A stretch of DNA of 64,000 nt from Haladaptatus sp. QDMS2 (GCF_029338295.1 NZ_CP119791.1:1674001-1738000); one strand, 5' to 3'; counted from the first letter of the stretch, positions 1,745-11,704 are shown. The notes: generated by a model from the letters alone, not told the origin. Program-made: numbers and translations.

Positions 1745-2137
1745 TTACTTGTCCTCGAGAGCGTCTGCGATGCGGCCGAGTTCACGGCGGATGTCGACCA
1801 TCTCGTCGCGGACCTTGCGCACTTCACGGACGAGTTCCTCGTTCGCGCGGCTGTTGCTCTGTTCGCGCTCTGGTCGCCCGCCCATGGCACCGCCGGGGCC
1901 GCCACCGCCCATCATGCCGCCCATCATCTGGGCGAATGGGTTGCCGCCGCCACCCATGCCGCCGCCCATACCGCCACCGCCGAAGGCTTCTTCGAGGCGC
2001 TCTTCGCGGCTTCGGTCGCCCTCGCCTTCCTCTCGCTCTTTGGCTCGTTTCTCGCGAATCTCCTCGACGCGCTCGCGGAAGGACTTTTCCTGTGACTCTG
2101 ACTCGGCTTGCTTCTCCTGCTTGTCGTCTTTCGTCAT
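1745..2137 (-). CDS. Glycine/methionine-rich coiled-coil protein of unknown function
   Basis: The protein has 130 residues in three segments. The first is a highly charged lysine and glutamate helix (about residues 1-48, with REERLEEAFGG at its end). The second is a flexible middle rich in glycine and methionine (GGGMGGGMGGGG, MMGGMMGGGG). The third is a C-terminal heptad-like helix (ELVREVRKVRDEMVDIRREL) that looks able to form a coiled coil. There is no signal peptide or membrane segment. Proteins of this build are seen in haloarchaeal genomes, but I know of no assigned role. The coiled coil suggests oligomerisation, which is inference. It stands alone between the DUF2797 gene and the acyl-CoA dehydrogenase, all on the minus strand. 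Confidence 0.7.
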   Translation of the reverse strand: MTKDDKQEKQAESESQEKSFRERVEEIREKRAKEREEGEGDRSREERLEEAFGGGGMGGGMGGGGNPFAQMMGGMMGGGGPGGAMGGRPEREQSNSRANEELVREVRKVRDEMVDIRRELGRIADALEDK

Positions 2138-2184
2138 AGGCCCGGGTTGGGAGTGACCGGGGAAAAACGTTGGGGGATGTAGAC

Positions 2185-2937
2185 TTAAAACGCGAGCAGG
2201 CTCGACTGGACGGGTTTCGTCGACGCTTCCGCGGTGAGTTCGTATCCGACGAGGCCGCGAAGGTCGACAGCATAGGTCGACCCGGCGTGGCCCAGGAGTA
2301 GAACGCGCCCCTGGCTGCCGATGACGGTTCCCGTCGCGAGCGTTTCGGCGATAGGCGGTGCGTCGAGAGAAAATCCGTAGTCAAAGTCGAACTCTTCGAT
2401 GACGTCAAAGTCAGTGAGAAGGGCGTTCCACGCCGCCTCGTCAACCGTGCGGTGGAGGCCCGGAATCTTCGTCGGGACGCGCACCCGGTCAACCAGCCGG
2501 TTCGCGATTTCAGCTTCGCGCTGGCGAGCGATGCGGCCGTCTTTGACGGTGGCGATGTGCGCGCCGCGGTCTGCACCCTGCTCGGTGAGGCGTTGGCGGA
2601 GTCGCCAACTGCGGGTCACGCCGACTTTGAAGATGTCGGGGGCGAACGCGGCGAGGTAGATGGCGTGTTCCTCCTCGCAAGTGTCGACCGGTTTGTCGCA
2701 GTTTCCGGTGCAGATGGCACACGGCCACAGGTCAGAATGCAGGTCGCAGTAGGGAGCGCGAGGTTCGTCACAGGCGACGTGGTCGTCGTCGTGGACGACG
2801 CCCGCACAATGTCTTCGACCGAGCGAATAATCGAGTCGATGGCCCGGAACCAGTGGCTCGCGGTGAACTGTGCCGTCCTCGGCGACGAGGAGGGCGGCCT
2901 CGTTCTCCTGGCCCGTCCGGTACCCGACGATTTGCAC
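2185..2937 (-). CDS. DUF2797 family protein with zinc-like cysteines and a GIY-YIG-like segment
   Basis: The protein has 250 residues. The N-terminal half carries clustered cysteines and histidines (RRHCAGVVH, ACDEPRAPYCDLH, CAICTGNCDKP) that look like a structural metal site. The middle (about residues 93-150) reads AIYLAAFAPDIFKVGVTRSWR followed by RLTEQGA and REAEIANRL. This resembles the GIY-YIG nuclease fold with the first tyrosine in place and the distal catalytic glutamate possibly provided by the REAEIAN helix. DUF2797 proteins occur in archaea and actinobacteria and have no established function. A nucleic-acid role is inference from the fold resemblance only. Confidence 0.82.
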   Translation of the reverse strand: MQIVGYRTGQENEAALLVAEDGTVHREPLVPGHRLDYSLGRRHCAGVVHDDDHVACDEPRAPYCDLHSDLWPCAICTGNCDKPVDTCEEEHAIYLAAFAPDIFKVGVTRSWRLRQRLTEQGADRGAHIATVKDGRIARQREAEIANRLVDRVRVPTKIPGLHRTVDEAAWNALLTDFDVIEEFDFDYGFSLDAPPIAETLATGTVIGSQGRVLLLGHAGSTYAVDLRGLVGYELTAEASTKPVQSSLLAF

Positions 2938-3100
2938 ACTGCGGGCTACGCTCGCAGCCGGTAAAAGCCGTCCGTTACCGTCGGTCGCGATGAACTCACG
3001 AGTCGATTACCTACATCGAGACACTCCCCGCCAGAAACGTACATGAACTATCATTGAATTAGTTAGCAGGTTAATATTTTCAGAACAAAATTGCGAAAAT

Positions 3101-3107
3101 TTTAATT
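3101..3107 (+). promoter_or_regulatory. TATA-like promoter element of subtilase A
   Basis: The AT-rich sequence TTTAATT lies 29 bases before the ATG at 3130, in an AT-rich tract that contrasts with the GC-rich surroundings. A TATA box at this distance implies transcription starting at or next to the start codon, as on leaderless haloarchaeal mRNAs. The same heptamer occurs at exactly the same distance before the paralogous gene at 4773, which supports function. Confidence 0.65.
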
Positions 3108-3129
3108 GCAGACCGTCTGTCTCGCAGGT

Positions 3130-4275
3130 ATGGCTGATTTGCCAGACACTCTCACACGTCGTAACGCACTCAAACTTCTCGGAACCACGACGGCCGCCGC
3201 CGGACTCACGGGCGTCGCAGCCGGTGACCTCAGCGGCCAGACCACGCGCGTGAACGTCGGTTTCGACAATTCGAGCGCGAAGCAGGCCGCGCTCGACCTC
3301 GCGGACACCGTCCACTGGGAATTCGCGTGGAGTGCGGTCACGATTTCACTCCCGACCGCTGCTATCGACACGCTTCGTGGCGTCCCGGGTGTTCGCTACG
3401 TCGAAGTCGACCGAACGATGGAAGCAATCGCACAGGACCTCCCATGGGGCGTAGACCGCACGGACGCGGAAGTCGCGCACGCCGCGGGTGACACCGGCGC
3501 GGGAGCCGATATCGCCATCATCGACACCGGTATCGACCAGTTCCACGCAGATCTGGCAGACAACCTCGGCAACGGTCGGGCCTTCACCGGGCCAATCGCG
3601 ACGAGCAACTGGCAGGACGACAACGGTCACGGCACCCACTGTGCGGGTATCGCAGACGCTCTCGACAACGACACGGGCGTCGTCGGCGTCTCCACCGAAG
3701 CGACCCTTCATGCCGTCAAAGTTCTCACCGCCGCCGGAACGGGGATGACCTCCGACGTGGCGAAGGGTATCGAGTGGGTCGGCGACCAGGGCTTCGACGT
3801 CGGGTCGCTGAGCCTCGGCGGCGGCGCCTCCGAGACGCTCAAAGAGGCCGTCGAGTACACCACCAGCAAGGGCGTCCTGCTCGTCGCCGCGGCTGGAAAT
3901 GACGGCCCGTGTACGGACTGTGTTGGCTACCCCGCCGCCTATCCCGAAGTCGTGGCCGTCAGTTCGACCAACCAGAACGACGGCCTGTCGAGTTTCTCCT
4001 CGCAGGGACCGGAAATCGATATCGCGGCTCCGGGGTCGAACATCTACTCGACGTACACGGGTGGCAGCTACGCCACCCTCTCAGGCACGTCGATGGCCTG
4101 TCCACACGTCTCGGGCGCAGCGGGGCAATTGATGGCGCAGGGTCAGTCGGCGAGTCAGGCACGCAACACGCTTCTCTCGACGGCAGAAGACATCGGTCTC
4201 TCCGCAAACGAGAGTGGCGCGGGCCTGGTCGACGTGGCCGCCGCGCTCGGCCACAACTCCGGCGACGACCTATAA
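3130..4275 (+). CDS. Exported S8 family serine protease (subtilase), intact copy
   Basis: The protein has 381 residues from the ATG at 3130. That start gives a clean twin-arginine signal (TRRNALKLLG then a short hydrophobic stretch), whereas the upstream TTG at 3106 does not improve it. An I9-like propeptide covers roughly residues 35-105, ending near the VEVDRTMEAIAQDLPWGV processing region. The subtilisin triad is complete: Asp132 in IIDTGID, His167 in NGHGTHCAG and Ser321 in SGTSMACPHVSG, with oxyanion Asn257 in AAAGNDGP. Family knowledge: such enzymes are secreted halolysin-like proteases. Unlike classic halolysins it ends right after the catalytic domain (GHNSGDDL), with no C-terminal extension. 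A second, broken copy follows at 4773. Confidence 0.95.
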   Translation: MADLPDTLTRRNALKLLGTTTAAAGLTGVAAGDLSGQTTRVNVGFDNSSAKQAALDLADTVHWEFAWSAVTISLPTAAIDTLRGVPGVRYVEVDRTMEAIAQDLPWGVDRTDAEVAHAAGDTGAGADIAIIDTGIDQFHADLADNLGNGRAFTGPIATSNWQDDNGHGTHCAGIADALDNDTGVVGVSTEATLHAVKVLTAAGTGMTSDVAKGIEWVGDQGFDVGSLSLGGGASETLKEAVEYTTSKGVLLVAAAGNDGPCTDCVGYPAAYPEVVAVSSTNQNDGLSSFSSQGPEIDIAAPGSNIYSTYTGGSYATLSGTSMACPHVSGAAGQLMAQGQSASQARNTLLSTAEDIGLSANESGAGLVDVAAALGHNSGDDL

Positions 4276-4665
4276 GTGACATCCTCCCGCGCCTGAAGAC
4301 GCAGGCCTCCCACACCCACCAACGGGCGGTTCGTTGGGATGTTTATGGTTCGCACCCCGACGAGGTGCTGGCTATGCCACGTAGCCGTTACTCCTATCTC
4401 GTCCGGGCAACGGACGGGACTCGGAGGTACCTAGTTGTTTTGTGTCGGTCCGCCGTCCGCGGGCTTACGTTTTGATGAGGCAAACACCCAGTCAACTGCC
4501 AGGTTTCGGACTGTCAGAACCCGATGGGAAACCATCGAATCGACACCGAGTGATACGCACGGAGAGCACCTAAGACTATGCTGTACAGTGAAAGTAACCA
4601 AAGACGGCGATTCATCCACGTCCTCAAGGGCGTGGTATTCTCGCCTGCAATCCTATAAACTATCG
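4276..4665. mobile_element. Probable decayed IS200/IS605-type element, no transposase left
   Basis: This roughly 390-base block between the two subtilase genes has no credible reading frame. It opens at the subtilase stop codon with GTGACATCCTCCCGCGCC and a small hairpin around GAAGACGC. It closes with TCCACGTCCTCAAGGGCGTGG, a hairpin-forming motif, followed by TATTCTCGCCTGCAATC. From memory, both resemble the end sequences that flank TnpB-type IS200/IS605 elements in haloarchaea, but no TnpA or TnpB coding sequence remains between them. The likely reading is a non-autonomous or internally deleted element that inserted between duplicated genes. A fortuitous hairpin-rich spacer is the alternative. 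Ends are approximate. Confidence 0.5.
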
Positions 4666-4743
4666 ATTAGATAGTTCAACGGTCCTGAATTGTTTCCACT
4701 AAGCAGTTCTCTGCCAATTATTTTCATAATTAATAACAAAGAA

Positions 4744-4750
4744 TTTAATT
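4744..4750 (+). promoter_or_regulatory. TATA-like promoter element of subtilase B
   Basis: TTTAATT lies 29 bases before the ATG at 4773, the same sequence and spacing as before the first subtilase. The surrounding 80 bases are AT-rich. The conserved placement suggests the whole promoter-gene unit was duplicated and that the second copy may still be transcribed despite its frameshift. Confidence 0.6.
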
Positions 4751-4772
4751 ACTGTTGGCTTCTGGTGAGGTT

Positions 4773-5922
4773 ATGACAGAATTGTCAGAGACTGTCACTC
4801 GTCGTAACGCACTCAAACTCCTCGGTTCGACCGCCGCCGCAGCCGGGCTCACGGGTGTCGCCGCGGGCGACCTCACGGGCGACTCGATGCGGGTCAACGT
4901 CGGTTACGATACGGAGACCGCAAAACAGGCCGCACTCGACCTCGCCGACACGGTTCACTGGGAGTTCGCCTGGGACGCCCTCACCATCACGATGCCGACA
5001 GCGGGCCTCGATTCGCTCCAGGGCGTTTCGGGTATCCGCTACGTCGAGAAGGACACCGAAGTCGAAGCGCTCGCTCAGACGCTGCCGTGGGGCGTAGACC
5101 GCACGGATGCGGAAGTCGCACACGCGAACGGTGACACCGGCGAAGGCGCAGACATCGCCATCATCGACACCGGCATCGACCGTTATCACGGCGACCTCGT
5201 GGACAACCTCGGCGAAGGACGGGCGTTCACCGGGCCAATTGCCTCCGACAACTGGCACGACGACAACGGCCACGGCACCCACTGTGCGGGTATCGCGGAC
5301 GCGGTTGACAACGACACGGGGTGTCGTCGGCGTTTCGACGACCGCAACCCTTCACGCCGTCAAGGTACTCACCGCCGCCGGCAGTGGGTTCAACTCGGAC
5401 GTGGCAAAGGGCATCGAGTGGACCGTAGACCAGGGCTACGACGTTGGCTCCATGAGCCTCGGGGGCGGTGGCTCCACACAGAACGGGAAAGAAGCGGTCG
5501 AATATGCGGCGAACAAGGGTGTGTTCCTCATCGCCGCCGCTGGCAACGACGGCCCCTGTACGGACTGCGTGAGCTACCCGGCCGCATACCCCGAAGTGAT
5601 GGCCGTGAGCGCGACGAACGACCAGGACCAGCTCGCGAGTTACTCCTCACAGGGTCCTGAGGTCGAAATCGCCGCGCCCGGCACGGACATCTATTCGACG
5701 TACACCGGCGGGACGTACAACACGCTTTCCGGCACGTCGATGGCCTGCCCGCACGTCTCGGGCGCAGCGGGGCAACTGATGGCCGAGGGGCAGTCCGCCA
5801 GTCAGGCCCGGAGCACCCTCAAGAGTTCTGCTGAGGACATCGGCCTCGGCGCGAACGAAAGTGGTTCGGGGCTGCTCGACGTGGCCGCCGCACTCGGCCA
5901 AAACTCCGGCGACGACCTGTAA
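4773..5922 (+). pseudogene. Subtilase paralogue B, disrupted by a one-base insertion
   Basis: The start ATG at 4773 begins MTELSETVTRRNALKLLG, again a twin-arginine signal. The propeptide, Asp region (IIDTGIDRYHGDL) and His region (DDNGHGTHCAGIAD) are intact. At 5318-5321 the run GGGG replaces the GGG of a frame-preserving sequence, so translation leaves frame after DNDTG and ends near 5660 in a foreign frame. The rest continues perfectly in the next frame from VVGVSTTATLHAVKVL through AAAGNDGP and the serine motif SGTSMACPHVSG to GQNSGDDL. A single deleted G would restore a protein of about 382 residues very similar to copy A. A sequencing error or a slipping homopolymer is possible. The codon structure downstream is not decayed, so any inactivation is recent. 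Confidence 0.88.
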
Positions 5923-5929
5923 CCTCGGC

Positions 5930-6380
5930 AAATAGTTGTGAACTACCCTGCCCTACCGCGCTCGGGGCTACCCGCCCCTCGCTTGTTGAGGACAGGGCTT
6001 CCTGTTTCTGTGTCAAGACTTGCACCCGTGGGCACAGCGGTCTCAGACTCCGCAGGCGATTTCCCTTTACGGGCAGTTCGGAGTGTCCCACTCCTACTGA
6101 ATCGACACTCGGCCACAACCGACGATGCACGCTTGTTGTCGTCGTTCGAAAGGCGCGACGCGCCTTTCGTGATGACGAAACGGCTTCGCCGTTTCGAACC
6201 ACGTTTGAACAACGCCGGAAGCGTGGTGAGTATCTTACTACCCCCTTCGACCGAATCGGTAGTAAGCGTATCGTACATAGTGAATGTGAACTATGCGGGC
6301 GGTGTATCCCCTCCCTACTCGCGTCTTCGACGCTCGTTGAGGAAGGGGGCTTACCGCCTTCGATTATGCTAAACTACACC
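5930..6380. mobile_element. Hairpin-rich IS200/IS605-like remnant between subtilase B and the inhibitor gene
   Basis: There is no gene in this block. Near 5938 it reads GTGAACTACCCTGCCCTACC, later GACAGGGCTTCCTG, a stem-loop resembling, from memory, the terminal or guide-RNA region of TnpB-type elements. A second such stem-loop lies at about 6287-6355 (GTGAACTATGCGGGCGG, then GAGGAAGGGGGCTTACCGCC). Between them are three inverted repeats: arms 6147-6156 and 6160-6169, arms 6176-6184 and 6188-6196, and arms 6234-6242 and 6258-6266. The first two are perfect with three-base loops. No transposase fragment is recognisable. The two similar ends suggest two successive insertions or a mini-element. 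Confidence 0.5.
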
Positions 6381-6397
6381 ACCGCCTCTATCCGGAC

Positions 6398-6727
6398 ATG
6401 ACGCTCGAAAAATCGCTCACCGCGACGTCCACGAACGGAAGCGTCGATTTCGTCCTCACGCTCAGGAACACTGGCGAGGACACCGTCTCGCTCACCTTTC
6501 GCGATTCGGGGAAGGCAGACTTTGTCGTCTTAGACGGCGACGAGGAACGCTGGCGCTGGTCGGACGGGCGCATGTTCGCCCAGGTGCTCACGAATCAGGA
6601 TATCGAACCCGGAGACACAGTCGATATCGAAGCGGAGTGGGAGGACCCAGACCCCGGCGAGTACGAAGTCGTCTGCGAACTCCGGACGATGGAAGCCGAG
6701 GAAGAACGGACGACATTCTCGGTGTGA
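6398..6727 (+). CDS. BsuPI-type intracellular proteinase inhibitor domain protein
   Basis: The protein has 109 residues, all one domain. The pattern VDFVLTLRNTGEDTVSLTFRDS, then DFVVLDGD, ERWRWSDGRMFAQVLT and IEPGDTVDIEAEWE matches the BsuPI domain, an immunoglobulin-like beta sandwich. It is named after the Bacillus intracellular inhibitor of subtilisin-like proteases. There is no signal peptide or membrane segment, so it should stay in the cytoplasm. It follows the two exported subtilase genes on the same strand. The inference that it guards the cytosol against premature protease activity is attractive but unproven, because many BsuPI proteins in archaea have no tested inhibitor activity. 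A TATA-like TTATGCTA lies about 33 bases upstream, at the edge of the hairpin-rich remnant. Confidence 0.82.
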   Translation: MTLEKSLTATSTNGSVDFVLTLRNTGEDTVSLTFRDSGKADFVVLDGDEERWRWSDGRMFAQVLTNQDIEPGDTVDIEAEWEDPDPGEYEVVCELRTMEAEEERTTFSV

Positions 6728-6761
6728 CTGGGCAGTAACACCAATCAGTAACACCAGTCGG

Positions 6762-7703
6762 TTAGTGTTCCTGGTCGGGGTTTTCGAGCAGTTCCTGTAC
6801 CGCTTTCCGCACCGATTCGTGTGAGGAGAGCCGTGGCTCGTAACCGAGTGCAGAGAGTTTCTCGATAGAGAGGCGCATCTTCGGCACGTCGCCGGTCCAG
6901 CCACGGTCGCCGCCCGTGTACTCGTATTCGGGGTCGAGGCCCATCTCGTCTGCGACGATGTCCGCGATGGTCGTGACTGAGGTGGTCGTCCGGGTACCGA
7001 GGTTGTAGGAGTTCATCGGCGCGTCTGCGTGTTCGACGACGTGGGCGATGGCTTCGACGCACTCATCGACGTGCATGTAGGACTTCTCCTGGCGACCGTC
7101 GCCAAGGATGACGAGTTTCTCGGGGTCGGCCTGCAACTTCTCGACGAAGTCTGGGACGACGCCGTGGCCAAAGCGCGGGCCGACGATGTTCGCGAAGCGG
7201 AAGTTCCACACGGTGAAGTCGTAGGAGTGGGCGAACACAGAGAGGAGACTCTCCTCTGCGAGTTTCGCCGCGCCGTAGATGCTGATGGGTTCGAGTGGGG
7301 CGTAGTCTTCTGGCGTCGGACGCGGGGCCTCGCCGTACACCGTCGACGAGGAGGTGTAGACGATGTTCGAGACGCCAACGTCGTCCATCCGCTCTAAGAT
7401 GTTGTACGTGATGTCACCGTTCACCTCGAACTGCTTGCGCGGTTCGTCCGAGTTCACGTACTTCTCCGCTGCGGCGAAGTGGAACACGGCATCGAGGTCG
7501 TCGGTGATGACGTCCCCGACGGCTGATTCGTCGGTGAGGTCGGCGTTCACGAATTCAGCGTCGTCGGGGACGCTCGACCGGATGCCGTTCGAGAGGTTGT
7601 CGGCGACGACGACGTCGTTTTCGGGGAGCAACTGGGCGACCATCCGCGAGCCGATGAGACCCGCACCGCCCGTGACGAGGATGCGCTTGCCGGAAAGCTT
7701 CAT
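6762..7703 (-). CDS. NAD-dependent epimerase/dehydratase (extended SDR), UDP-glucose 4-epimerase-like
   Basis: The protein has 313 residues from the ATG at 7703. That start places the Rossmann motif TGGAGLIG at residues 11-18, as expected, whereas starts further upstream add an unconserved tail. The acidic residue that binds the NAD ribose is Asp35 in VADNLS. The active-site pair is Tyr143 and Lys147 in IYGAAKLAEE, with the serine/threonine stretch YTSSSTVYGEAP before it. Family enzymes epimerise or dehydrate nucleotide sugars such as UDP-glucose or UDP-glucuronate in the cytoplasm. The substrate cannot be read here. Glycosylation genes further along the window could use its product, but it is not in an operon with them. 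Confidence 0.9.
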   Translation of the reverse strand: MKLSGKRILVTGGAGLIGSRMVAQLLPENDVVVADNLSNGIRSSVPDDAEFVNADLTDESAVGDVITDDLDAVFHFAAAEKYVNSDEPRKQFEVNGDITYNILERMDDVGVSNIVYTSSSTVYGEAPRPTPEDYAPLEPISIYGAAKLAEESLLSVFAHSYDFTVWNFRFANIVGPRFGHGVVPDFVEKLQADPEKLVILGDGRQEKSYMHVDECVEAIAHVVEHADAPMNSYNLGTRTTTSVTTIADIVADEMGLDPEYEYTGGDRGWTGDVPKMRLSIEKLSALGYEPRLSSHESVRKAVQELLENPDQEH

Positions 7704-7851
7704 GCGCCGAGATTTGTCGGGGTGCTCAAAGTCGTTCTGGGTCGGTACGGAGAATTTGTGGTTAGGCATCAATGCACAAACACTCGCGATTTCTGGATGG
7801 GTGTCCAAGAGCCAGAACAATTATTAGTGAAATTCTGCAATACCAGACAGA

Positions 7852-9474
7852 ATGCCAACTGAGACGTACGGGTTGATTAGTTTGCTGCCTGCGTTGCTGG
7901 CAATCGTCCTGACCCTCATCTCGCGACAGGCGTTACTGTCCCTGTTCGCCGGTGTGTGGCTCGGAGCGACCATCCTTGTCGGGTGGAATCCAATCGCAGG
8001 AGGCGCAAAATCGCTCGCACTCGTCGTATCGAACGTCACCTCCGCGTTCAATGCAAAACTCCTGTTGTTCACCTTCCTCGTCGGTGCGTTACTGGGCATG
8101 GTGTTCCTCTCGGGGGGAATGCGAGCGGTGGCCGATGGAATCGTGAAGCGAATCAAAACGCGCAGACAGGCGAAAGCGGGCACGGCGTTCCTCGGGACGC
8201 TCATCTTCTTCGACTCCTACGCGAGTACGATGATTTCCGGGTCGGTCATGCGCCCGGTCACAGACCAGTTCGACATCTCGCGTGAGAAACTCGCCTACCT
8301 CCTCGACTCGACCACCTCACCGATGGCCTCTATCGCCGTCGTCTCGACGTGGCTCGGTTTCGAGGTGGGCCTCATCCAACAGCAGTTCGACGCACTCGGG
8401 ATTCAGCAAAACGCGTTCGTCGTGTTCGTCGCGTCCATCCCGTTCCGGTTCTACAGCGTGTTCGCGCTCATCCTCGTCTACATCGTCGTCTTCACCGACT
8501 GGAACTTCGGGCCGATGAAGAAGGCAGAAGAGCGCGCACAAAACGAAGGCAAACTCATGCGCGACGACGCCTCGCCGCTCATGGAGACGCAGGCGAGCGA
8601 CATCGAGACGCCCGAGCACGTGAGTCCACGCTGGTGGTACTTCGCCGCACCAATCCTCGCGCTGGTCGTGGTCACACTCGTCGGTCTGTGGTGGACCGGT
8701 GGTGGCCCGGCGAAGACGAACGCCGCGCTCGCCGGAACCAGCGGCCTCGGTGCAGTGTCTGCGTTCCTCGGGTCCTACGCAGACGCGCTGAAGGAAGCGG
8801 GAACCGCCGACGCCATCCTCTGGGCGGCGTTCGCCGGGTGTGCGACGATGCTCACCATCCTCGTCGGTCACGCCCGCATCGGCCTCGACAAGGTCAGCGA
8901 CGCCATCTTCGAGGGCTTCAAGATGGTCATGTTCCCGGTCGCCATCCTCTCGCTCGCGTGGACGATCGGAAACGTGAGCCAGTTGCTCGGCGTCGGCCCG
9001 TACGTCGTGAGCGTCGCAGAGGGCATCATCACCGCCCCGCTGCTCCCGGCCGTCATCTTCCTCACGGCCGCGCTCATCAGCTTCGCCATCGGGACCTCGT
9101 GGGGGACGATGGGGATTCTGTTCCCGGTCGCTGTCCCGCTCGCCGTCGAACTGAACGCGACCCTCACGCTGGCCATCGCGGCCATCCTCACCGGGTCGCT
9201 GTTCGGAGACCACTGTTCGCCAATCAGCGACACCACGGTCATGAGTTCGATGTTCGCTGCGAGCGACCACGTAGACCACGTCGCCACGCAGATGCCGTAC
9301 GCGATTCTCGCCGCCGTGGTGGGGACGCTTGGCTTCCTCGTGAGCGGCTACACCGCGCTGTCGCCGTGGGTGACACTCGCCGTCGGCACCACCATCATGG
9401 GCCTGAGCGCGTACCTCCTCTCTGAGTACGTCGGCAAGACCGACCGCGTTGGCGTCGGCGCGCTATTCGAATAA
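7852..9474 (+). CDS. NhaC-family Na+/H+ antiporter
   Basis: The protein has 540 residues with about a dozen hydrophobic segments. The family signature FGDHCSPISDTTVMSS lies near residue 450. Earlier marks are GMVFLSGGMRAVADGI and FFDSYASTMISGSVMRP, and a charged cytoplasmic loop (KKAEERAQNEGKLMRDDASP) lies about 220-240. NhaC proteins exchange sodium for protons across the cytoplasmic membrane. Some relatives carry malate or lactate exchange, so the ion partner is family inference. The gene stands alone, divergent from the epimerase, with AT-rich TTATTAGTG about 25 bases before its ATG. It complements the Mrp operon at 28-34 kb. Confidence 0.88.
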   Translation: MPTETYGLISLLPALLAIVLTLISRQALLSLFAGVWLGATILVGWNPIAGGAKSLALVVSNVTSAFNAKLLLFTFLVGALLGMVFLSGGMRAVADGIVKRIKTRRQAKAGTAFLGTLIFFDSYASTMISGSVMRPVTDQFDISREKLAYLLDSTTSPMASIAVVSTWLGFEVGLIQQQFDALGIQQNAFVVFVASIPFRFYSVFALILVYIVVFTDWNFGPMKKAEERAQNEGKLMRDDASPLMETQASDIETPEHVSPRWWYFAAPILALVVVTLVGLWWTGGGPAKTNAALAGTSGLGAVSAFLGSYADALKEAGTADAILWAAFAGCATMLTILVGHARIGLDKVSDAIFEGFKMVMFPVAILSLAWTIGNVSQLLGVGPYVVSVAEGIITAPLLPAVIFLTAALISFAIGTSWGTMGILFPVAVPLAVELNATLTLAIAAILTGSLFGDHCSPISDTTVMSSMFAASDHVDHVATQMPYAILAAVVGTLGFLVSGYTALSPWVTLAVGTTIMGLSAYLLSEYVGKTDRVGVGALFE

Positions 9475-9559
9475 TTCGGGACGCCGTCTCCCGCCTTTTT
9501 CGCCTCTCACCATCGCGTTCGATTGATAGACTTTTCTCCCCCGGTCTGATTGTGCGGGT

Positions 9560-10381
9560 ATGCGCCTCCCCTACGAGTGGGCAGAAGCGACGATTCCAGT
9601 CAACGGAGTCGACCTCCAGTGCTACCGAACGGGGAACGGCCCGCCACTCCTCATGGCACACGGCTTCTACGAGAACGCGCCGTGTATGGCGCAGTTGGCG
9701 AACGACCTGGCCGACGACTACGAGGTCATCCTCTACGATGCTCGCGGCCACGGAATGTCGGATGCATCCGAAGCCGGGTACACAATCGACGACCGGGTTG
9801 CAGACCTCGTCGGTGTTGTAGACCACCTCGACCTCGAAGACCCCATCCTGTTTGGTCACTCGATGGGTGGGTCTGCGGCGGCGTGGACGACCGCGACCCA
9901 TCCCGACCTCCCGCGTGCCCTCGTCCTCGAAGACCCTGCCAACCTGCGTGGTCATCACGAAATCGAGGCCGAAAAACGGGTGGCGCTCGTTCGAGACCGA
10001 CTCGAAGCCATCGACTCACAGACGGTCGCAGAACTCGCGAGCGACTACGAGCAGTACGGGCCGAACGCCGCCCGTCAAATTGCCATCGCGAACACGGAGT
10101 GTCACCCACATATCGTCGAAATCGCTCGGGAAGGGTATCCGCGGACGGCGGACGCCTTCCCGAAAATCGAGTGCCCGACGCTCGTGTTGAAATCCGATGC
10201 CGACACGGAGGTTCGAGCAGCTGACGTGGCCGCAGCAGAGCCGTTGAGACACGGCAGACTCGTCCACATCTACGATGCCGGTCACTCGGTGTTCCGCGAC
10301 CAGTACGACGCCGCGTTCGCCGAATTACAGACGTTTCTCCACCGTGTCGAAACCCGAACGTCCCAATCCGAAACCCCCTAA
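9560..10381 (+). CDS. Alpha/beta hydrolase
   Basis: The protein has 273 residues with the standard fold. The oxyanion-hole motif is LLMAHGFYENAPCMAQ near residues 31-46. The nucleophile elbow GHSMGGSA places Ser101 as nucleophile. The acid is probably Asp213 or Asp215 in LVLKSDADTEV, and His242 in DAGHSVFRDQ completes the triad. The motif DARGHGMSD near residue 60 is typical of the esterase and epoxide-hydrolase-like branch. There is no signal peptide, so it acts in the cytoplasm. The substrate is not predictable. It precedes trm56 by only 24 bases on the same strand, so the two may share a transcript without sharing a pathway. Confidence 0.88.
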   Translation: MRLPYEWAEATIPVNGVDLQCYRTGNGPPLLMAHGFYENAPCMAQLANDLADDYEVILYDARGHGMSDASEAGYTIDDRVADLVGVVDHLDLEDPILFGHSMGGSAAAWTTATHPDLPRALVLEDPANLRGHHEIEAEKRVALVRDRLEAIDSQTVAELASDYEQYGPNAARQIAIANTECHPHIVEIAREGYPRTADAFPKIECPTLVLKSDADTEVRAADVAAAEPLRHGRLVHIYDAGHSVFRDQYDAAFAELQTFLHRVETRTSQSETP

Positions 10382-10405
10382 CCGTCGCCGCCGCTTTGCT
10401 CGTCT

Positions 10406-10942
10406 ATGCAGGGAGAACCCGAAGTCGTCATCCTTCGGCTGGGTCACCGCCCCGGTCGGGACGAGCGGATGACCACGCACGTCGGCCTCACGGGCCGAGC
10501 GCTCGGCGCAGACCGCGTCATCCTCGTCGACACCGAGAGTTCGAAGGACACAATCGAAGACATCACCGACCGCTTTGGCGGCCCCTACGACGTGGAAGTC
10601 GTCTCCTCACACCGCCCGGTCATCCGCGACTGGGAGGGAAAAATCGTCCACCTCACGATGTACGGCGAGCGCGTCCAGGACGTTGAAGCCGACATCCGCG
10701 CCGCCCACGCCGAAGAACCCCTGCTCGTCGTCGTCGGCGCGGAGAAGGTTCCCTTCGAAGTATACGACGCCGCAGACTGGAACGTCGGCGTGACTAATCA
10801 ACCGCATTCTGAAGTAGCCGGCCTTGCCGTGTTCTTAGACCGCCTGTTCGAAGGCCGTGAATTAGAGCGCGAGTGGATCGGGGCGAAAAAGCGCGTCATT
10901 CCCCAGAAGAAGGGCAAGCGCGTCGAACCGGTCGAGGAGTGA
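10406..10942 (+). CDS. trm56: tRNA (cytidine(56)-2'-O)-methyltransferase
   Basis: The protein has 178 residues. This archaeal enzyme methylates the 2'-hydroxyl of C56 in the T-loop of tRNA using S-adenosylmethionine. It is a SPOUT-class, knotted methyltransferase. The visible family marks are the opening VVILRLGHRPGRDERMTTHV, the motif GLTGRALGADRVIL, and the knot region LLVVVGAEKVPFEVYDAADWNVGVTNQPHSEVAGLAVFLDRLF in separate conserved pieces (GAEKVP, NVGVTNQPHSEV). Most archaea have this gene, Pyrobaculum relatives being the known exception. The basic C-terminus (KKRVIPQKKGKRVEPVEE) probably helps bind RNA. Confidence 0.93.
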   Translation: MQGEPEVVILRLGHRPGRDERMTTHVGLTGRALGADRVILVDTESSKDTIEDITDRFGGPYDVEVVSSHRPVIRDWEGKIVHLTMYGERVQDVEADIRAAHAEEPLLVVVGAEKVPFEVYDAADWNVGVTNQPHSEVAGLAVFLDRLFEGRELEREWIGAKKRVIPQKKGKRVEPVEE

Positions 10943-11074: not shown

Positions 11075-11468
11075 TCAGATGAAGTCGATGTCGAGGATGT
11101 CGGTGATTCCAGCGACGTCAAAATCCGAGTCAGCCACAACGAGTCGCTCATCGAGCCCCTTCGCAGTGCCAGCGATGAATGCGTCTCGCGCAGCGAGTGC
11201 CTGGCCACGCTGGTGCAGGTCGTTCTGCAGTTTTGCTGCGGCGCGTTCCAGGTTAGCTGTCTCTTCGATAACGGCCACCCACTCGAGGGCATCTTCGAGG
11301 GCGTCAACATCTGCGGGGCCGGCTTTGAAAACTTCTCCCTGGTAGACTTCGAACATCACCAGTGGGGGGTGCAATTGCGCGTTCGTCGAGGTGACTCTCG
11401 ACGTAGTCGATGGCTTCGTCGGTCCCATCGAGATAGTCGATGAGGACGCTGCTGTCGTAGAGCGTCAT
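11075..11468 (-). pseudogene. PIN-domain toxin (VapC-like), frameshifted
   Basis: Reading starts at the ATG at 11468, overlapping the antitoxin stop as ATGA. The first part, MTLYDSSVLIDYLDGTDEA, holds the first acidic residues of a PIN nuclease. After ERAIAPP the frame is lost in a run of six Gs on the plus strand (11364-11369). Removing one base gives continuous PIN sequence onward: LVMFEVYQGEVFKAG, then RDAFIAGTAKGLDERLVVADSDFD, which carries the other acidic catalytic residues, to ILDIDFI at the stop. The repaired protein would be about 130 residues, normal for VapC RNases. The downstream frame is undamaged, so the lesion is recent, a sequencing error or a reversible slip. As written, the toxin is inactive. 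Confidence 0.87.
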
Positions 11469-11677
11469 CGAGTGCCGACGCCCTGCTTCATGTCTTTTCG
11501 TGCATCGCGGGCTTTCTGTGCGGCGTCTGTCCCTTTCCAGAGTCCGGCACCGTCTCGGACGGTCTCCCGCCGTTCTTCGATGAGTCGAGAGAGCAAGTCG
11601 TCGAACGTCTCGTCGCTTCCCTTGAGCGCTGCGAGCGCTGCATGGGTGTCGTCTTTGACTCGGATACTCTTGCTCAT
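11465..11677 (-). CDS. VapB-type antitoxin
   Basis: The protein has 70 residues from the ATG at 11677, beginning MSKSIRVKDDTHAALAALKG. This N-terminus has the ribbon-helix-helix-like pattern of haloarchaeal antitoxins partnered with PIN toxins. The C-terminal half (RLIEERRETVRDGAGLWKG) is charged and should wrap the toxin. It overlaps the toxin gene by four bases (ATGA), implying coupled translation. Directly upstream is a perfect inverted repeat at 11683-11704, a likely operator for autorepression. Because the toxin frame is broken, the antitoxin may now act only as a DNA-binding protein. Confidence 0.82.
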   Translation of the reverse strand: MSKSIRVKDDTHAALAALKGSDETFDDLLSRLIEERRETVRDGAGLWKGTDAAQKARDARKDMKQGVGTR

Positions 11678-11682
11678 AGCGG

Positions 11683-11704
11683 TTGTATACAGGCCCGTAT
11701 ACAA
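11683..11704. promoter_or_regulatory. Palindromic operator of the VapBC pair
   Basis: TTGTATAC at 11683-11690 and GTATACAA at 11697-11704 form a perfect 8-bp inverted repeat with a 6-base spacer, ending six bases before the antitoxin ATG. Read on the minus strand it covers the expected TATA and start region, so a bound VapBC complex would block initiation. Autorepression is known for VapBC systems. The match here is direct, the function inferred. Confidence 0.72.

Follow-up and report, generated by a model that had tools for sequence, protein, structure and literature searches.

Genes and inserts at the locus

The window analysed here is a stretch of 64,000 nucleotides of Haladaptatus sp. QDMS2 (GCF_029338295.1 NZ_CP119791.1:1674001-1738000). 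It holds two copies of a subtilase gene (family S8) followed on the same strand by a gene for a BsuPI-domain protein, which is the only BsuPI gene in the source genome (Table 1).

Table 1. Features of the subtilase-BsuPI locus, numbered from the first nucleotide of the window.
Feature	Position	Strand	Remarks
DUF2797 protein (PF10977), divergent neighbour	2185-2937	-	Pfam 65 bits; considered to lie outside the module
Subtilase 1 (S8), 381 aa	3130-4275	+	ATG at 3130, stop at 4275; PF00082, 181.5 bits
Dispersed repeat between both subtilases	4276-~4640		72-92% identity to 7 further partial copies in the genome
Subtilase 2, frame-interrupted	4773-5922	+	~77% identical to copy 1
Second dispersed repeat (non-autonomous element), gap between subtilase 2 and BsuPI	5937-6373		22 other partial matches in the genome
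TATA-like stretch TTATGCTA	6364-6371	+	27-34 nt before BsuPI, at the A+T peak seen in relatives; pattern only
BsuPI protein, 109 aa	6398-6727	+	PF12690, 95 bits (cut-off 22.9)
NAD-dependent epimerase/dehydratase, convergent neighbour	6762-7820	-	Pfam 172.9 bits, synteny; considered to lie outside the module

Subtilase 1 is an open gene with the catalytic Asp, His and Ser and the oxyanion Asn all intact. It encodes a Tat signal (twin-arginine LTRRNALKLL, motif TRRNAL), an I9-like prodomain and the catalytic domain, in this order and without a C-terminal extension. The AF2 model of the protein gives the prodomain (residues 37-92) a beta-alpha-beta-beta-alpha-beta arrangement and matches unprocessed pro-subtilisin E (3whi) across prodomain and catalytic domain (TM 0.83, 357 columns). 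Subtilase 1 shares with halolysins the Tat signal and the N-terminal prodomain, but it ends about 24 residues past the S8 domain match and has no halolysin-type C-terminal extension.

The initial annotation described two tandem twin-arginine subtilases followed by a BsuPI-domain protein. We confirmed the intact subtilase 1 and the BsuPI gene, but subtilase 2 is not a single open gene. It presents a +1 frameshift at a G4 run (5318-5321, one extra G, where copy 1 reads GGGC), and its open halves fall within ORFs 4755-5660 and 5107-5922. The frameshift reflects either decay to a pseudogene or a sequencing error in the homopolymer. On the minus strand of the same window, a VapC-like frame (~11075-11470) is apparently split at a G6 run (11364-11369). 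Since this gene also seems split at a run of G, a sequencing error is possible in subtilase 2.

The insertion remnants that had been proposed between the three genes are real: both are dispersed, transposon-derived repeats, of which further partial copies occur elsewhere in the genome. For the second repeat, the best genome match is 85% identical over 436 nt, and the repeat ends 24 nt ahead of the BsuPI start codon. The first one would be a remnant of an IS200/605-like element or a MITE. Because no inverted repeats of at least 12 nt were found inside either insert, we infer the IS200/605-like class rather than assign it. An Rfam scan of 2500-7500 gave no match.

The end of the second inserted element contributes the TATA-like stretch ahead of BsuPI. 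Among the sampled loci, A+T-rich stretches are found at about -34 to -25 ahead of the S8 starts and of many BsuPI starts, as expected for leaderless transcripts; therefore, expression of the putative inhibitor could be independent of the protease.

For the BsuPI protein, a phmmer search hit the intracellular proteinase inhibitor IPI of B. subtilis (3ISY, E 2.7e-11). The same structure was the top PDB match of its AF2 model (pLDDT 91.8) with a TM of 0.91, the next best reaching about 0.6. The loop RMFAQVL (residues 58-64) aligns with the IPI loop KMFTQAF, which we assigned to IPI residues 62-68 from the chain numbering. Residues 62-68 of IPI have been proposed to enter the active site with Gln at P1 (PMC3901451). 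Gln occupies the P1 position in 93 of 101 BsuPI proteins and Met in the other eight, and linked and unlinked BsuPI alike keep the loop. By eye, no signal peptide was seen ahead of the BsuPI domain in the loci examined, and the protein of the window starts with MTLEKSLT. The BsuPI protein is a candidate cytoplasmic subtilase inhibitor.

Linkage and co-occurrence of subtilase and BsuPI genes

Of 243 Halobacteriales genomes, 134 carry BsuPI, in nearly all cases as a single gene. To the window we added 100 BsuPI loci, each with some 8 kb of flanking sequence per side, ordered by BsuPI score and contig size and blind to subtilases (101 loci in total), and the expected linkage was derived from the S8 number and size of each genome itself. 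An S8 gene was found within 5 kb in 31 of the 101 loci against 2.4 expected (~13-fold), so the enrichment over random expectation on which the initial annotation had staked its proposal was observed. Restricted to S8 genes directly upstream, on the same strand and at 300 bp or less, the count was 28 against 0.03 expected (~1000-fold). These values rule out pure chance as the cause of the linkage. A further 16 Halobacteriales BsuPI loci, 12 of them with linked S8, were added later and stand outside the enrichment count, since some were picked knowing that S8 was nearby.

The linkage spans eight families of Halobacteriales. All 74 S8 pieces near BsuPI lie on the BsuPI strand, with up to five in tandem in one family (f17), and a Tat-type RR motif was found in 66 of the 67 linked S8 analysed. 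On the other hand, 70 of the 101 BsuPI genes (~70%) have no linked S8, both same-genus relatives of our genome included.

The usual order at the locus is a divergent DUF2797 gene, zero to five S8, BsuPI, and a convergent epimerase. DUF2797 is the left border of this conserved locus in most haloarchaea and adjoins BsuPI in 85 of 101 loci; the NAD-dependent epimerase/dehydratase is the right border. When S8 is missing and DUF2797 is near, BsuPI lies within 300 bp of DUF2797 in 38 of 57 loci, as it does in the two same-genus genomes (G001 and G002, 132 bp, no S8 there). S8 thus comes and goes at one site, because BsuPI without S8 keeps the same place near DUF2797.

This constancy of place could mean that the gap between DUF2797 and BsuPI is merely a tolerant landing site, where S8 was inserted with no functional tie to its neighbour. 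The borderline result of the strict phylogenetic contrasts given below would also agree with it. However, none of 40 genomes without BsuPI has S8 at the DUF2797 locus (one of them, G012, has a sub-threshold BsuPI match), with Fisher values of 8e-6 overall and 5e-6 for loci with DUF2797 only. We therefore rejected hitch-hiking on DUF2797 as the main explanation. Every S8 near BsuPI being on its strand argues in the same direction, and so do the co-occurrence that persists where the genes are unlinked and the pairs found at other loci and outside the order. Altogether, we consider a neutral landing site improbable. Within one genus (g51), a single genome (G195) has both genes at the locus and four (G126, G191, G238, and G241) have neither. 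In another genus (g26), the pair sits at a second haloarchaeal locus without DUF2797 (L086 and L118), where a third representative (L126) has BsuPI alone.

At the genome level, we defined the S8 subfamily by a match to subtilase 1 at E 1e-85 or better. It was present in 74 of the 243 genomes, and BsuPI in 72 of those 74 versus 62 of the other 169 (Fisher 1.6e-21). Stratified by family, co-occurrence was observed in 71 genomes against 57.6 expected (z 5.7). Independent contrasts on the DUF2797 tree gave about five pairs that agree and 0.3 that oppose (median p 0.06), with few informative pairs; after this correction for descent the direction is consistent and, alone, not significant.

BsuPI could also be a general regulator of intracellular proteolysis, acting on any S8 of the genome or on foreign subtilases, with the linkage to one clade as only one of its arrangements. 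Most BsuPI are unlinked, yet some S8 occurs in 130 of the 134 BsuPI genomes (no S8 was found in the other four), and for the namesake, IPI, the reported target is an intracellular subtilisin whose gene lies elsewhere (PMC3901451). Nevertheless, BsuPI correlates best with the linked subfamily and clearly less with other S8: among genomes carrying only the latter, BsuPI was found in 58 of 132. Moreover, all linked S8 fall in one fully supported clade, apart from the long-form halolysin-like S8 (mostly 530-600 aa in the sampled genomes), and we regard such a general role as quite improbable.

The S8 tree was a quick one with some long branches, and its clade of linked S8 also contains unlinked genes. 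The S8 of the window is closest to BsuPI-linked S8 of four other genomes (G108, G082, G151, and G121), while its BsuPI groups with those of the two same-genus relatives (100/99). The BsuPI tree, in which few branches are resolved, mostly follows families. S8 linkage changes about 13 times on it, and at least six of these changes are forced by well-supported branches.

Two archaea outside Halobacteriales have strong BsuPI matches, and both carry the pair. In the first (L239, genome G394), the subtilase at 4525-6486 is followed by BsuPI at 6544-6903 after a gap of 57 nt; in the second (L240, genome G413), the subtilase at 7981-6791 precedes BsuPI at 6740-6372 on the minus strand with a gap of 50 nt. 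By eye, these subtilases present a hydrophobic Sec-type signal and no Tat motif, and their BsuPI proteins have no signal. Since both enzymes carry Sec-type signals, the pairing is not peculiar to Tat export, and a Tat-specific pair is ruled out. No S8 was found near the two weaker BsuPI matches outside the order (L241 and L242).

A putative protease-inhibitor cassette

We propose that subtilase and BsuPI probably form a cassette of a protease and its cognate cytoplasmic inhibitor. The pair is adjacent, on the same strand and co-inherited, as in a protease-immunity module. The subtilase would be synthesised as a Tat-signal pro-enzyme that works outside the cell. BsuPI, encoded by the next gene downstream and carrying no export signal, would remain in the cytoplasm, where it may bind and block any enzyme that folds and activates itself before it is exported. 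The conserved wedge loop (RMFAQVL here, KMFTQAF in IPI) would most likely insert into the active-site cleft.

A need for a cytoplasmic inhibitor exists, because late in growth the halolysin SptA becomes active by itself within cells, and because a mutated Tat signal in Hfx. volcanii left active enzyme inside the cells and killed them (Du et al. 2015, cited in PMC6085418). An internal safeguard also fits the compartments, since BsuPI has no signal peptide and nearly all linked subtilases have the Tat motif. The initial annotation had likewise suggested an exported protease with a cytoplasmic safeguard, and linkage, co-occurrence and compartments agree with it. Its reason for the safeguard –Tat substrates fold before export and would be active inside– is weakened, because the subtilase already has an inhibitory-type prodomain of its own and Sec-type pairs exist. 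This prodomain, the high proportion of unlinked BsuPI, the four BsuPI genomes without a detected S8, the borderline phylogenetic contrasts, and the dispute over inhibition by this family are the points against the cassette.

Alternatively, BsuPI could be a cytoplasmic chaperone or export escort that binds the folded pro-subtilase, maintains its solubility and passes it on to the translocase, as proofreading chaperones do for Tat substrates. A small soluble protein of the cytoplasm whose gene directly follows that of an exported enzyme would suit this role, and the IPI fold is typical of protein-protein interaction, with inhibition unproven according to the IPI paper (PMC3901451). We find an escort unlikely: it would be needless for the paired Sec-signal subtilases, many S8 genomes have no BsuPI, and the feature conserved in the family is the aligned counterpart of the inhibitory loop proposed for IPI.

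Returning to the protease-inhibitor cassette, in the source genome it looks partly eroded, as copy 2 is frameshifted and elements lie in both gaps, and it may be decaying there. In haloarchaea, the recurrent order of a subtilase and then BsuPI suggests a built-in safety catch for the cell's own secreted protease. More tentatively, several archaeal orders could carry an exoprotease-immunity cassette, that is, an exported subtilase (by Tat or Sec) and a specific BsuPI inhibitor encoded directly downstream, often with its own leaderless-type promoter; we consider this slightly less probable than not. If true, BsuPI/IPI proteins would be settled as real inhibitors, and a main role of the family would be to guard the cytoplasm from the cell's own exported protease. 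The linkage is also relevant to the way in which cells escape self-digestion when the proteases that they export are folded and self-activating.

Comparison with known systems

IPI has been reported to inhibit subtilisins with a Ki of about 1e-9 M, but MEROPS withdrew the family because an inhibitor and a competing substrate had not been distinguished, and the inhibition is disputed (PMC3901451). According to the 2013 structure paper, complete genomes contain no IPI gene in the vicinity of a subtilisin gene (PMC3901451). The linkage described here is real (31 of 101 loci against 2.4 expected, 0 of 40 in the genomes without BsuPI, 72 of 74 in co-occurrence, and pairs outside the order) and contradicts that statement. 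It provides the missing genomic evidence on whether BsuPI/IPI proteins inhibit proteases, and it names the clade of the partner protease. The literature searched was open-access, so an earlier report of the linkage elsewhere is possible.

In toxin-antitoxin and protease-immunity pairs, too, an enzyme that may harm its own cell is inherited together with the adjacent gene of a small protein presumed to neutralise it. Here, no sign of addiction or of a mobility benefit was seen, the neutralisation is putative, and BsuPI, unlike the partners in such pairs, is often kept without a linked enzyme.

The halolysins SptA, Nep, 172P1, and HlyR4 are also Tat-exported S8 pro-enzymes with a prodomain and a catalytic domain of the same type. 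In contrast to them, the linked enzymes are mostly about 380-420 aa long, lack a C-terminal extension, and are placed by the tree outside the long-form S8 cluster. No halolysin with a linked inhibitor was described in the open-access literature searched.

Finally, B. subtilis IPI (formerly MEROPS I22, 3ISY) with its protease Isp1 shares with the haloarchaeal pair the family, the fold, the aligned loop, the short form without a signal, and the presumed S8 target. The two systems differ in the location of that target: it is intracellular in Bacillus, whereas the linked proteases of haloarchaea are exported and encoded directly upstream of BsuPI.

Oxyanion-hole asparagine in the linked subtilases

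In the family with up to five tandem subtilases (f17), eleven subtilases linked to BsuPI lacked the oxyanion-hole Asn and kept an intact Asp-His-Ser triad. The residue was replaced by Gly in ten of them and deleted in one; none of the 40 unlinked subtilases compared had lost it. The Asn-less copies might have little or no proteolytic activity and serve a regulatory function beside BsuPI.

Features discussed in this part and their positions
Feature	Position	Strand	BsuPI loci
Linked f17 subtilases without oxyanion Asn			L078, L085, L090, L093, L095, L100, L101, L107, L110, L115, L116
Subtilase of split locus	G212 C25:76420-78288		L257
Subtilase of split locus	G146 C1:471993-473962		L123
Tandem subtilase array	G010 C3:14840-29647		L243
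Conserved neighbourhood	window 1745-10942		
VapB-like/VapC-like pair	window 11075-11704	minus	
G6 run in VapC-like frame	window 11364-11369		

Subtilases apart from BsuPI

The locus was split in two cases, with the subtilase still adjoining DUF2797 and BsuPI elsewhere, next to the epimerase; both genes were nonetheless retained in each genome. Genome G010 carried about six tandem subtilases of the same clade as the linked ones, distant from BsuPI, and on another contig (C32) a subtilase interrupted by a stop immediately before BsuPI.

Homopolymer runs and the conserved neighbourhood

In the window, the VapC-like reading frame was apparently broken at a G6 run. Together with the frameshift of subtilase 2 at a G4 run, this split suggests homopolymer errors or young pseudogenes.

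DUF2797 and BsuPI, together with the epimerase and a protein similar to tRNA cytidine-56 methyltransferase, formed a haloarchaeal gene neighbourhood that was conserved in the window and in 85 of the 101 loci. DUF2797 itself was found in 232 of the 243 genomes.
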